DNA of 64,000 nucleotides, taken from the NCBI RefSeq assembly GCF_014639535.1, contig NZ_BMGA01000009.1:79387-143386 (forward strand). The letters run 5' to 3'. Each line of letters opens with the position of its first letter. Position 1 is the first letter of the stretch. A program made the translations under genes and the position numbers. Below are positions 15,042-18,750 of the stretch, piece by piece. Source of the stretch: Flavobacterium palustre. GTDB taxonomy: Bacteria > Bacteroidota > Bacteroidia > Flavobacteriales > Flavobacteriaceae. The notes beneath the pieces are model-generated. The model saw only the letters and a list, made by a program, of their open reading frames with translations, searched no databases and was not told the origin of the DNA.

Positions 15042-15839
15042 TTAGCTGAATAATAGTCGAACATAAACATGCTTAATTCCTTTTTTGTCTGAATCTCTTT
15101 CGTCGATTTCAAGAATATCCGTAAGTGATTTGAGCATCGGGGTTAATTTTGAAAAACCATAATTTCTAGGGTCGAATTCGGGTTTTTTCTTGACAATCAG
15201 GTTTCCTACATCGCCCAGAAATGCCCAACCATCATCATCGGCAAGATCCTCAATGGTAGATTCTATGAGTTCTATAGTAGGTTCGTCAATTTTATTAAGC
15301 GGTTTTTGTGTCGTTTTTTCCGGGGTTTTAACAACTGTTCTTTCTGTTGGTTTCTTAGTGTCGATATTAATTTTAGGTACTTTTTTCTTGATGGCTCCGT
15401 CTAAAACTTCCAAGAAAATAAAACGGTCGCAAGCGCTGATAAAAGGTTTTGGTGTTTTTTGCTCTCCAATTCCAATGACTTTCATGCCTGATTCCCGCAA
15501 TCGAATGGCCAAACGCGTAAAATCAGAATCGCTGGAAACAATGCAAAAGCCGTCCAGTTTTCCGGAATACAGCAAGTCCATAGCATCAATAATCAAGGCA
15601 GAATCTGATGAGTTTTTGCCTGTGGTGTAGCTGTATTGCTGGATGGGAGTGATGGCGTGTTCCAGTAAAACTGCTTTCCAACCGTTGGCATTGGGTTTAG
15701 TCCAGTCGGCGTAAATGCGTTTGGTGGTGGGAGTGCCGAATTTTGTAATTTCTTCCATCATTCCTTTTACATTGCTGTAAGGAACATTATCGGCATCTAT
15801 CAGCACGGCAAGTTTTAGCTCTTTTGGGTTGTTTGACAT
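15042..15839 (-). CDS. NYN-domain ribonuclease-like protein with C-terminal OST-HTH/LOTUS domain
   Basis: The 265-residue cytoplasmic protein opens with a NYN (PIN-like) nuclease domain: acidic residues in AVLIDADNVPYSN, DSALIIDAMDLLYSG and CIVSSDSDFTRLAIRLRE are the expected metal ligands. A Thr/Lys-rich linker (residues about 150-185) leads to an OST-HTH/LOTUS domain with GDVGNLIVKKKPEFDPRNYGFSKLTPMLKS, a proposed RNA-binding module. This architecture (MARF1/LabA-like) suggests RNA cleavage or sequestration; the bacterial substrate is unknown. It marks the left border of the repeat-rich accessory patch. Confidence 0.87.
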   Translation of the reverse strand: MSNNPKELKLAVLIDADNVPYSNVKGMMEEITKFGTPTTKRIYADWTKPNANGWKAVLLEHAITPIQQYSYTTGKNSSDSALIIDAMDLLYSGKLDGFCIVSSDSDFTRLAIRLRESGMKVIGIGEQKTPKPFISACDRFIFLEVLDGAIKKKVPKINIDTKKPTERTVVKTPEKTTQKPLNKIDEPTIELIESTIEDLADDDGWAFLGDVGNLIVKKKPEFDPRNYGFSKLTPMLKSLTDILEIDERDSDKKGIKHVYVRLLFS

Positions 15840-16157
15840 AGCAATTTCATTTGAAAGCTAAAGATAGTAATTCTAAAGTGTGAAAATGCCTTGTGCTGTT
15901 TTTAAAGTTTTGTTAATAGTGGGCTAGTTGTTTCGCAGAGATGCGCAAAGAAAACACAAAGCTTCACAAAGGATTATTTATAAAGTAACTTCATGAGCCG
16001 AGTCATTGCTTCGTTCCGATAGCTATCGGAACGAAGCAATCACATTTGCTAAGTTATTTAGCGGTACATGAGTCGCGTTGCAAACGCTTTATTTTGTTCT
16101 AATAAGTAAGTAGGTACTCGTTGCAAACGAGCACCAGACGGGGACTAGCCATAAGTT
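15840..16157. repeat. Gene-free, repeat-rich spacer left of the accessory patch
   Basis: No ORF is supported here. At 15941-15970 it carries a segment of the kind common between Flavobacterium genes (TTTCGCAGAGATGCGCAAAG and following). A 36-bp perfect palindrome lies at 16005-16040. GCGTTGCAAACGC (16075-16087) and CTCGTTGCAAACGAG (16117-16131) are two short palindromes sharing the centre TTGCAAA. A third with the same centre, CGGATTGCAAATCCG, is at 49160-49174. Confidence 0.7.
16005..16040. repeat. 36-bp perfect palindrome with CCGATAGCTATCGG core
   Basis: The half-site ATTGCTTCGTTCCGATAG (16005-16022) is exactly complementary to CTATCGGAACGAAGCAAT (16023-16040), with no loop. The inner 18 bases, TTCCGATAGCTATCGGAA, recur at 20072-20089. 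A perfect palindrome can form a cruciform or bind a symmetric protein; function unknown. Confidence 0.85.
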
Positions 16158-16583
16158 TTATGCGCTGTTAGCGGCTGGACTGTTGAGAAATATTATTGTC
16201 AAACATGTAATAATCATTATAAAGATATAAAGAGGCCATATTGATTTTGAAAACATGGAACTTAACAAGGTGCATTTACCAGAATTATATATATTGGCAT
16301 TCATTCTAAAATCTATTGAATTTTCATTTTCAGTCCTAACCTTATTGTAAAGTTCTCTAAATCGTCTTTCATGCATTAGAAAAAAGCCATTCATATACCA
16401 AAAAATAGGGATGGCTAAATAGATTATGAGAGCGAATAGTATATTGGATTCTTTTGCTGCAAGGGCAAATAGAGCAGATGTTAATGTTACCGCCCATCCT
16501 TTGATGAGGAATGAATTAGTACTCATTCGGTTTATTGTTGAATGAATAAATTCAAGATGTTTTAATTTGTTCTCAGACATCAT
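16158..16583 (-). CDS. Small multi-pass membrane protein, partner of the TIR-like gene
   Basis: This 141-residue protein has two adjacent membrane segments (about residues 24-62: GWAVTLTSALFALAAKESN, then ILFALIIYLAIPIFWYMNGF). A charged stretch ERRFRELYNKVRTEN follows, and a third hydrophobic segment near the C-terminus (WPLYIFIMIITCLTIIFL). The N-terminal HLEFIHSTINRMSTNSFLIKG followed by a helical pair resembles small membrane effectors of the SLATT/2TM kind found in bacterial conflict systems, but I cannot assign the exact family. Its start overlaps the 3' end of the TIR-like gene by four bases (16580-16583), so the two are translationally coupled. Pore formation or membrane anchoring is inference. 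Confidence 0.75.
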   Translation of the reverse strand: MMSENKLKHLEFIHSTINRMSTNSFLIKGWAVTLTSALFALAAKESNILFALIIYLAIPIFWYMNGFFLMHERRFRELYNKVRTENENSIDFRMNANIYNSGKCTLLSSMFSKSIWPLYIFIMIITCLTIIFLNSPAANSA

Positions 16584-17365
16584 AATAGGAATTTTGTATT
16601 AATTGATTTTTGCTCATATAAATTATCTAATGCATCTTCAGGTGAGGAAGCATGAGTATTTATCCACTTTAAAAATTCGGCCGAATTTAAGTCTGTAAGA
16701 TGTGAAAGTTCTAGCTCATATTCTACACTTAGTTGTGTTCTCAAACTTTCGTTCATTTCAGTTGCTGAAAATGATTTTGTTAGTCTTCTCAATCTTTTTG
16801 GAGTTTGTTTTCTAATTATTTGAGAAGTTGCTATTTCTGAGAAAATCCAAGGTGAATTAGTTTTTTGACTTATTTCATTTTTGGTAGAAATTGAATTTGG
16901 AGTATTTAAGAAAAATAAGCATTCACTTGAGTCAATCATTTTGTTTAGTGAAGATGATAGCATTAGATGTACATGAGCGGTTGAATAGTTTCTTTTTTCG
17001 TAGTTATAACTATTTTCATTTTCATTTTTGCAGTAGTCGTTGTCAATTTTCTTAAGTAATTCGTTGCAATGCATCCATACAACAGAATCAATAAATGTTA
17101 TGATTTTAAATTTATTGTAAAGCATTCCCGAAATAGTAATAGCCTGCTTAAAATCATTTCTAGAGTGAGAAAGAAATACGTGGCATGGTAAATTAGGAAA
17201 CCATTTTTCCATTAATTTATTTCCATCTAGAGAACTATTTTCCAATAAAAATGAATCTAGAGCTTCTTCTGCCTTTTCTTTTGTATGTTCAAATAATCTC
17301 CATCCTACAACTAAATCTTCATCAGTAAATTTTTCTTGAATTTTAAGATTAAAACCTCTATACAT
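16580..17365 (-). CDS. TIR-like domain protein, candidate NAD-cleaving defence effector
   Basis: The 261-residue protein shows a TIR-type fold. Box 1 is CHVFLSHSRND (residues 61-71), followed by a FIDSVVW strand at 91-97, LFFLNTPNS at 150-158, and SPWIFSEIATSQ at 171-182. In the last, W173-xxx-E177 aligns by eye with the WxxxE that carries the catalytic glutamate of NADase TIR domains such as SARM1. An N-terminal helical region (1-60) and a C-terminal region ending in a WINTHASSPEDALDNLYEQ segment flank it. No membrane segment is present. The overlapping small membrane protein and flanking inverted repeats fit a mobile two-gene defence unit. Enzyme activity is inferred, not shown. Confidence 0.75.
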   Translation of the reverse strand: MYRGFNLKIQEKFTDEDLVVGWRLFEHTKEKAEEALDSFLLENSSLDGNKLMEKWFPNLPCHVFLSHSRNDFKQAITISGMLYNKFKIITFIDSVVWMHCNELLKKIDNDYCKNENENSYNYEKRNYSTAHVHLMLSSSLNKMIDSSECLFFLNTPNSISTKNEISQKTNSPWIFSEIATSQIIRKQTPKRLRRLTKSFSATEMNESLRTQLSVEYELELSHLTDLNSAEFLKWINTHASSPEDALDNLYEQKSINTKFLL

Positions 17366-17399
17366 GATTTTGTTTATTATGGTTGATAAGTCTTGCCGC

Positions 17400-17630
17400 T
17401 AACGTCAGTCTGTGAAAAAACCAAAAATGATCCTCTGAGAATCGGCTGTATGAATTTTTTCTCAGACAGGTATCCGAATAGTTTCTCTTTTTGACTTAGT
17501 TTTTTCACAGCCTGACGTTTTGCCGCTACCCGAAGGTGGCGATTTCGAAGCACTTCACTGACAACCAAGCAGAAGCTTTGATTTAACCACTGAACCGCCA
17601 CTTTTGGGTAGGTGCTGTTGTGTGACGTTA
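17400..17630. repeat. 231-bp nested inverted-repeat spacer between two accessory genes (attC-like)
   Basis: The spacer is bounded by TAACGTCA (17400-17407) and TGACGTTA (17623-17630), which are inverted copies. Inside, GTCAGTCTGTGAAAAAAC (17404-17421) pairs with GTTTTTTCACAGCCTGAC (17499-17516) with one mismatch. A second imperfect pair is GCTACCCGAAGGTGGCG (17525-17541) with CGCCACTTTTGGGTAGG (17596-17612). The arrangement of GTTA/TAAC boxes around foldable arms resembles integron attC sites, but it is longer than usual and no integrase is in view. A 74-residue ORF on the minus strand across the spacer is a by-product of these repeats. Confidence 0.65.
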
Positions 17631-17646
17631 TTTAGTTTAAATGAAT

Positions 17647-18486
17647 CTAATAAGATAAAACATTTTGGTGATATTTATTTTCTTGTTCGGTTTTGATAAA
17701 CGAATTTTCAGTTGATTTTTTATGCCTTTTTGGTTTTAAGTCATAAATTATTTTTGCTACGTCAACTCCACCTGAAACCACAAAATAAGATGGGAATCCT
17801 TGTTCAGGTACCTTATTAGTGTAAGCCGCAACAGCACTAAAATATTTCCAAACGAAAACCGTAGAAATATTTCCAACAATTTTACTTTTCATATCTGAAT
17901 CACCTCTCACACCAACACCAGGTTTTATTATTAACATAAGTTCTTTTGCAATAGGTGTAATGTATTTTATTCCAATTATTCCCAAAGATGAAATCGGTGC
18001 ATTGGTTCTGTATTCGTTTTGAGGATTGTTGAAAGTTTGTGAAACTCCATTTAAATAGAGTGACCAAATGTTTTTTGCTTTATCAGGTTTGCTTAATGAG
18101 TATGAAAAATTTAATTCATATCCGATAGATGATGGATTGTATAAAGCACCAAAAGAAATATCTGTCCATAATTTATTAGAGTTAGAAAATTTAATTCTAC
18201 CTTGAGGCAATATTTTTGGTTTAGTTGGTTCTCCACCGCCATTGGGAAAAAAGACAGATGAAGAAGCATCAAATCCAATAAATTTATCTTTCTCTAATTG
18301 AAATGTCAATCCTCCTTTAATACCTAAAATACTTCCAATTCTAACAAAATTATTGTCTTTTTGAAATGGATTCGTATAGGACAAATCAAGGTGATATTGA
18401 GTTTTTGAAGTCGAGTTATCCTGACCAATTGCTGTTTCTACAAAAAATAGACTTAATAGGATTAAACATAAAGATTTTGTTTTCAT
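17647..18486 (-). CDS. Hypothetical outer-membrane beta-barrel-like protein
   Basis: The 279-residue product has a cleavable signal peptide (MKTKSLCLILLSLFFVETAIGQ) and then alternating beta-strand-like segments with aromatic residues, such as YHLDLSYTNPF, IGYELNFSYSL and VFVWKYFSAVAAYTN, consistent with a small outer-membrane barrel. No named family was recognised. The last 30 residues are polar and lysine-rich, unlike a classical barrel end, so a periplasmic protein is also possible. The gene is enclosed by inverted repeats GTTGTGTGACGTTA (17617-17630) and TAATGTCACACAAC (18510-18523), 13 of 14 matching, which suggests it moved as a single-gene unit. Confidence 0.65.
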   Translation of the reverse strand: MKTKSLCLILLSLFFVETAIGQDNSTSKTQYHLDLSYTNPFQKDNNFVRIGSILGIKGGLTFQLEKDKFIGFDASSSVFFPNGGGEPTKPKILPQGRIKFSNSNKLWTDISFGALYNPSSIGYELNFSYSLSKPDKAKNIWSLYLNGVSQTFNNPQNEYRTNAPISSLGIIGIKYITPIAKELMLIIKPGVGVRGDSDMKSKIVGNISTVFVWKYFSAVAAYTNKVPEQGFPSYFVVSGGVDVAKIIYDLKPKRHKKSTENSFIKTEQENKYHQNVLSY

Positions 18487-18509
18487 AATTTTTCGTTATT
18501 AGTTTTTTA

Positions 18510-18593
18510 TAATGTCACACAACTTGTGTATAGGCGAAACAAACTTTCGTATATACACCTAAAATTGGGTAGATTGGCGAAAGTTTGTTTCGC
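18510..18593. repeat. Inverted repeats upstream of the orphan gene
   Basis: GCGAAACAAACTTTCG (18534-18549) and CGAAAGTTTGTTTCGC (18578-18593) are perfectly complementary over 16 bases with a 28-nt loop. The adjacent TAATGTCACACAAC (18510-18523) is the inverted partner of 17617-17630 on the other side of the orphan gene. The whole forms the right border of the accessory patch. Confidence 0.75.
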
Positions 18594-18717
18594 TTTATTT
18601 TTTTTCAAATATATTTATTTTTTCTTACAAATAACTCTATGCTTTTTTCATTATAATTTTTCATTGTAGAGAATAAAGCCCAAAGAGGCTATCGCTCCTG
18701 AAAATAATTGTACTTAG

Positions 18718-18750
18718 AAGACCTTTATAAAATTTAAATAATTATTTTTG
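18718..18750 (+). promoter_or_regulatory. Promoter for the alpha-oxoamine synthase gene
   Basis: TTG (18718-18720), a 22-nt spacer and TATTTTTG (18743-18750) match the Bacteroidota -33/-7 pattern. The -7 box covers the upstream alternative start at 18748, so the ATG at 18787 is the real start. Confidence 0.65.

Follow-up and report, generated by a model that had tools for sequence, protein, structure and literature searches.

A ThsB-class TIR protein and a small membrane protein as a candidate Thoeris-like module in Flavobacterium palustre

We analyzed a stretch of 64,000 nucleotides from Flavobacterium palustre (assembly GCF_014639535.1, contig NZ_BMGA01000009.1, positions 79,387 to 143,386), hereafter the window. 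It encodes a TIR-like protein, which we call TIR1, and, in an overlapping gene, a small membrane protein of the PADLOC family PDC-M50A, here M50A (Table 1). On balance, we think it probable that the two constitute a minimal Thoeris-like anti-phage module, in which a signal made by the TIR protein acts on M50A as the membrane effector. This reading builds on the family of the TIR protein, the conservation of its active site, the recurrent linkage of the two genes, the variety of TIR proteins beside M50A, the alternative effectors beside TIR1 relatives and the mobility of the pair. An earlier reading of the DNA letters alone (the sequence-only reading) had proposed a candidate defence module with the TIR protein as effector and no match to a named system. 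The idea of a defence module is supported by our analysis of the sequences, but the other two points need revising. In particular, the TIR protein falls into the ThsB (Thoeris) family of PADLOC and its partner into PDC-M50A.

Table 1. Coordinates of the gene pair and of the insertion that holds it (positions in the window)
Feature	Positions	Strand	Basis
TIR-like ThsB-class protein TIR1, 261 aa	16580-17365	minus	open reading frame list, PADLOC, TIR fold
Small membrane protein M50A, 141 aa, PDC-M50A family	16158-16583	minus	open reading frame list, PADLOC, predicted structure
4-bp overlap, end of TIR gene with start of membrane-protein gene	16580-16583	minus	open reading frame positions
Insertion of ~2.85 kb relative to G017 and G010, holding the pair and gene 17647-18486	15848-18700 (borders approximate)		synteny

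TIR1 belongs to the ThsB class

Two PADLOC ThsB models match TIR1, PDLC00430 with E 1.6e-75 and PDLC00435 with E 1.9e-38. The protein carries FLSHSRND at residues 64-71, D93-S94, W97 and W173-IFS-E177; the sequence-only reading had given the first and last of these motifs, as well as both open reading frames and their 4-bp overlap, exactly. Both W173 and E177 are invariant in all 45 TIR1 relatives, so that the glutamate of the WxxxE motif is kept in homologs, and E177 aligns with the WxxxE of TIR_2 partners in a profile-profile comparison with a TIR_2 set (E 5.3e-7). A TIR fold, the other property proposed at the outset, was looked for and found, with a middling Z score and a uniform list of matches. 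Judged from these alignments, E177 would be the retained catalytic-type glutamate of a signal-making TIR. The best NCBIfam match for TIR1 (E 0.011) was dismissed as chance.

TIRs visible to Pfam are otherwise few in the F. palustre genome, with one other locus, found by both PF13676 and PF08937, although a search of this kind would miss divergent TIRs such as TIR1. On contig C8 of the same genome (L153:1399-2562), a 387-aa protein combines leucine-rich repeats with TIR_2 in a Toll-like arrangement.

M50A is a small membrane protein with conserved polar residues

Four PADLOC models of PDC-M50A, in which we take 'PDC' to mean 'phage defence candidate', match the 141-aa protein, the best being PDLC04686 (E 5e-47). 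Each member of the pair also matches a family of phage proteins whose function is unassigned in PHROGs: phrog_33368 for TIR1 (E 9.5e-57) and phrog_19896 for M50A (E 1.7e-40).

The AlphaFold2 model of M50A, built from 18 sequences (predicted local distance difference test score, pLDDT, 90.7; predicted template modeling score, pTM, 0.79), shows two long helices (residues 4-45 and 48-84) folded into a hairpin, with a third helix (116-134) after them. Hydropathy peaks place membrane segments at about 25-43, 46-70 and 115-133, and the charged stretch HERRFRELYNKVR follows the second of them. Model and hydropathy thus agree with the helix pair, charged stretch and third helix read from the letters. 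About 24 N-terminal residues and about 14 residues after the second segment would lie outside the membrane; as both stretches are positive, the positive-inside rule would place them in the cytosol. Polar positions are highly conserved, namely R19 (62/62), N23 (54/62), S24 (56/62), K28 (61/63), E72 (62/64), R76 (59/64) and Y79 (62/65). Because the helix map puts the hairpin turn at about residues 46-47, R19 may come to lie near residues 72-76, so that these polar side chains would gather where the hairpin leaves the membrane.

No Pfam model matches the window protein at the cut-off, and 18 M50A members together gave two weak Pfam matches only, each in a single member; the SLATT model was absent among their matches at E up to 0.01 in this sequence-level search. 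Both DUF3278 (E 0.0035, under the Pfam cut-off, 1 of 18 members) and the best NCBIfam match for M50A (E 0.1) were dismissed as chance. No PDB sequence matches M50A, and a fold search gave no clear fold.

The two genes travel together and are mobile

In a sample of 199 genomes of the genus, TIR1 is present in 4 and M50A in 5; every genome with TIR1 also has M50A, and there the two genes are neighbors. In a sample of 345 genomes of the phylum, PDLC00430 scores in 20, with full-length matches in 7 (8 genes, E 5.7e-69 or better) and short partial matches only in the remaining 13 (E 6e-6 or weaker). M50A scores in 18 of the same genomes and strongly in 16 (E 1.5e-24 or better). All 7 genomes with full-length TIR1 lie within these 16 (P 1e-10, a value that ignores relatedness, 5 of the 7 coming from one genus). 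As to the two weak M50A matches, the one in G525 corresponds to a short fragment of M50A (L075), at which hidden Markov models (HMMs) detected no TIR, and that in G522 lies outside the fetched loci. Neither model matched in 14 control genomes.

A clear TIR is present in the cluster at 12 of the 16 strong M50A loci, be it TIR1, PF08937, TIR_2, SEFIR or CAP12/TIR-STING. The TIR_2 scores at L058 and L060 are under the Pfam cut-off (4.3e-5 and 3.3e-5), and by eye L062 and L065 resemble L060. At L057 and L067 one gene separates TIR and M50A. The order in L067 (5997-8463) is M50A, a cytidine-deaminase-like protein and a TIR-STING protein, and in L058 (6553-9263) a fusion of a ParA/CbiA-like part with glycosyl hydrolase 25 is encoded between the TIR_2 gene and M50A.

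Across 67 fetched loci, M50A is found within 300 bp of 36 of the 45 TIR1 genes and within 1.2 kb of 5 more, whereas 4 have none; the resulting 41/45 is descriptive of a non-random sample, since the loci were picked via TIR1 or M50A and include near-identical ones. The coupling suggested by the sequence-only reading is thereby borne out. The genes share a strand in 35 of the 36 close pairs, of which 22 have the order TIR-M50A and 14 have M50A first (13 of these same-strand). The 4-bp overlap is present at 7 of the 45 TIR1 genes, that of the window included. Recurrence of the pairing across further genera and phyla shows that it does not arise by chance.

The pair occurs on chromosomes, on plasmids and on predicted viral contigs, in keeping with the mobile distribution expected earlier. 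M50A adjoins TIR1 or is one gene off in 17 of 21 IMG/VR contigs chosen by TIR1, where we read the surroundings as including inovirus-like Zot and Mu-like baseplate genes. Three more IMG/VR loci, chosen by M50A, contain a ThsB-type TIR. In a PM2-like Vibrio phage, the one examined of 3 near-identical phage records, the pair lies beside an integrase-like gene with an identical 4-bp overlap and bears the depositor's note 'Thoeris__ThsB_Global'. M50A also matches 121 plasmid records. Of 122 plasmid places, we examined 20, taken from 40 listed and some of them near-identical, and 19 have a TIR near M50A (one by HMM only), the exception being Priestia plasmid pBMG8. Plasmid hosts include Klebsiella, E. 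coli, Priestia, Lactiplantibacillus, Streptomyces, Rhodococcus and haloarchaea. Among 5,426 complete E. coli genomes, 10 carry one variant of the pair, whole or partial, on plasmids only. The G+C content of the two window genes is 0.286 and 0.312, against 0.35 for the window.

On four actinobacterial and haloarchaeal plasmids (L107, L109, L156 and L159), genes for HIT-domain proteins sit beside the M50A and TIR genes; such proteins could degrade a nucleotide signal.

This distribution bears on whether the pair might serve housekeeping or stress signaling instead of defence, the reading to which we give the least credence of all. In its favor, a defence role is argued here from sequence and context. 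On the other hand, the distribution is patchy (TIR1 in 4/199 genomes and, at full length, in 7/345), plasmids and phages carry the pair, and both proteins belong to PADLOC families.

M50A in the position of the effector

M50A is retained while its TIR partners vary, and some loci have several TIRs (L056, L057, L059, L061, L063, L072 and L073). PADLOC spreads these partners over several ThsB classes (PDLC00422/423/436 and PDLC00428), and the second TIR at some M50A loci is BcThsB-like. Moreover, the window M50A shares 41% identity with M50A of L056, which accompanies a PF08937-type TIR, versus 26% with that of L070, which accompanies TIR1. Thus, an M50A with a PF08937-type TIR is sometimes the closer one, and partners have therefore been exchanged.

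The four TIR1 relatives that have no M50A are also informative. One, in L082, lies near a contig edge. In L089, a TIR1 relative is found with a SIR2-SLOG ThsA (E 9e-201) and a second ThsB, and in L090 with two TM-macro ThsA proteins (1.4e-97 and 5.1e-53). On the predicted viral contig of L088 (3488-9365), several ThsB-class TIRs accompany a patatin phospholipase that carries a SLOG (cluster-2) domain, an arrangement resembling a Thoeris-type system in which a phospholipase is the effector. Because M50A joins varied TIR classes, and ThsA or a SLOG-phospholipase sits with TIR1 relatives instead, M50A seems to stand where ThsA otherwise would, in the effector slot of a Thoeris-like system.

The same data speak to the role that the sequence-only reading had given the TIR protein. 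If TIR1 were the effector, it would kill by depleting nicotinamide adenine dinucleotide (NAD+), with M50A as its sensor or anchor in the membrane, signaling that a phage has entered or that the membrane is under stress. Terminal NADase TIRs do exist, according to a passage of PMC12847820, the catalytic-type residues are intact in 45/45 relatives, and M50A, a membrane protein, has a long hairpin that would extend into the cytosol. However, several different TIRs use one M50A, and TIR1 relatives also adjoin ThsA effectors (L089, L090), which answer a TIR signal, or the SLOG-phospholipase (L088). Sensors are expected to vary and effectors to be held in common, and a killing TIR has this reversed. 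We therefore regard this alternative as rather unlikely; a TIR signal-maker with a membrane effector fits better.

A signal need not be diffusible if a phage-triggered TIR assembly were to bind M50A directly and open it. M50A has no ligand domain, and the distances of TIR1 and M50A correlate (Mantel r 0.595 over 36 pairs, left from 40 after removal of near-duplicates; none of 5,000 permutations reached it, the best being 0.307), as co-diverging contact partners would. Yet shared descent also gives co-divergence, and host relatedness contributes to r. Moreover, because M50A pairs with very different TIR classes, one common contact surface is unlikely, and we consider direct contact quite improbable.

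Lost genes allow a further alternative to be weighed, in which a toxic TIR is held in check by M50A as its antitoxin or inhibitor, as might befit a small partner whose gene overlaps the TIR gene on the same strand. An insertion sequence truncates M50A beside a full-length TIR gene in L108, and in L074 (G026) the M50A frame has an internal stop while that of the TIR is open. In addition, M50A of L099 has no TIR near it, and M50A comes first in 14/36 close pairs. If those copies are active, the three losses suggest that the cell would survive with either gene lacking its partner, and they argue against a toxin-antitoxin pair, to which we give very little weight.

A proposed mechanism

In the Thoeris-like reading that we prefer, TIR1 would be a ThsB-class sensor and enzyme triggered by phage infection. 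Once triggered, it would consume NAD+ at an active site containing E177 and produce a nucleotide signal. The signal would activate the M50A encoded alongside TIR1; at the inner membrane, in the position of ThsA, M50A would oligomerize or open and damage the membrane, so that the infected cell would die or stall before phage release. We infer the phage trigger, the NAD chemistry, the diffusible signal and the membrane damage.

A more specific version, which we put forward tentatively as a possibility, makes M50A a stand-alone signal-gated effector that lacks a separate ligand domain. The near-invariant polar residues R19, N23, S24 and K28 of the first long helix, together with E72, R76 and Y79 of the second, would bind a TIR-made signal of the ADP-ribose (ADPR) type at the edge of the membrane and thereby cause M50A to open. 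M50A would then be an unusually small effector of the Thoeris class and a plug-in for several TIR classes in bacteria and haloarchaea.

Several results weigh against the proposed module. No Pfam family matches TIR1 at E up to 1, Foldseek found no significant match for it (best E 0.42), and hhalign against the PF08937 set gave none. The M50A partner in L060 matches no PADLOC model, and M50A of the Priestia plasmid pBMG8 (L099:4998-5402) has no annotated or HMM-modelled TIR nearby. M50A has no recognizable ligand-binding domain through which a signal might reach it. The pair might also consist of an ordinary NADase TIR and a membrane protein that regulates it.

Relation to known defence systems

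One of the closest known systems is the candidate PDC-M50, which consists in PADLOC of M50A and M50B. We assume that PADLOC requires both. The M50B model PDLC04688 was not among the matches of the four proteins encoded at 15042-18486 at E up to 1. Two proteins that match PDLC04688 also match the ThsB models PDLC00431/00433, whereas the TIR of the window is of class PDLC00430. Because M50B proteins match ThsB models, a membrane protein with a ThsB-like TIR is already listed as a candidate (PADLOC-DB 2023). A literature search found no paper naming PDC-M50.

Thoeris itself combines ThsB with ThsA. TIR1 has the features of the ThsB TIR protein, but a ThsA was looked for and not found, M50A matching PDC-M50A models only (PADLOC, E up to 1), and therefore the pair was not filed as Thoeris. 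By analogy, the pair would nevertheless work like Thoeris. As to a nucleotide cyclase like those of CBASS or Pycsar, the one protein scanned on either side of the pair (15042-15839 and 17647-18486) matched no PADLOC model.

Thoeris type II, with a TM-macro ThsA, encodes a TIR enzyme and a membrane effector in one operon, like the module proposed here. According to passages of PMC11204291 and PMC12847820, TM-macro ThsA oligomerizes in response to its signal and presumably disturbs the membrane, the former source describing membrane lesions as the presumed result. In contrast, M50A is 141 aa long, has a helical hairpin and one further helix, leaves no space for a macro domain and does not match ThsA. 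The TM-macro model had no match in the F. palustre genome, a result that is weak alone since that search matched nowhere.

Type I, with a SIR2-SLOG ThsA, is represented among TIR1 relatives by L089, but PADLOC detects no SIR2-SLOG protein beside the window pair. Elsewhere in the genome, on contig C2 (L155:691-2217), there is a 508-aa SIR2_2 protein that matches part of the ThsA model of the SIR2 type; its gene probably also serves defence.

In type IV caspase-like and type VI Thoeris, TIR-made ADPR signals are reported to act with co-encoded effectors; type IV differs from the window pair, which has no protease. The name 'type VI Thoeris' is reportedly due to Yirmiya et al. 2025, a preprint surveying TIR systems, which may contain the M50A type already. 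For loci with two TIRs, a model is offered by staphylococcal Thoeris, where ThsB1 binds a phage capsid protein and recruits ThsB2, the signal maker, according to a passage of PMC12578639; the window has one TIR. PMC12847820 credits Wang et al. with 12 TIR systems from E. coli, and an M50A pair might be among them.

The insertion site

In the relatives G017 and G010, the NYN gene directly adjoins the gene at 18748, with no open reading frame of 80 aa between them. In G005, where the gene at 18748 is 98% identical, different genes occupy the site. Among 8 relatives fetched, the NYN gene is within the stretch in 4, directly beside the 18748 gene in 2 and separated from it by other genes in 2. In none of the 8 did tblastn find TIR1 or M50A within the fetched stretch (about 6.3 kb each).

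The site in G005 (L145:3022-3645) includes an Abi_2-like fragment with E 3.5e-5, just under the cut-off, a hint that defence genes collect here. The third gene of the insertion in the window, 17647-18486, encodes a protein of 279 aa that matches DUF6268 below the threshold.

Inverted repeats around the pair had been taken as a sign of a mobile element. They exist, but we rejected them as such evidence, because those on the left are small and recur at many places in the genome. The left spacer (15880-16157), with palindromic and other small repeats, has 22 matches in its own genome, itself counted, and the right spacer (17366-17646) has no match beyond itself and a single 40-base stretch. That the locus is an insertion relative to G017 and G010 rests instead on synteny.

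Implications

Similar pairs of TIR and membrane proteins are already candidates in PADLOC. If M50A is the effector, the output of bacterial TIR signaling can be a membrane protein of very small size and without a known signal-binding domain, which would provide a simple system for asking how a nucleotide signal opens a membrane. In that case, the different TIR classes at M50A loci should produce a common signal, and an unnamed family present on many plasmids and phages would be explained.
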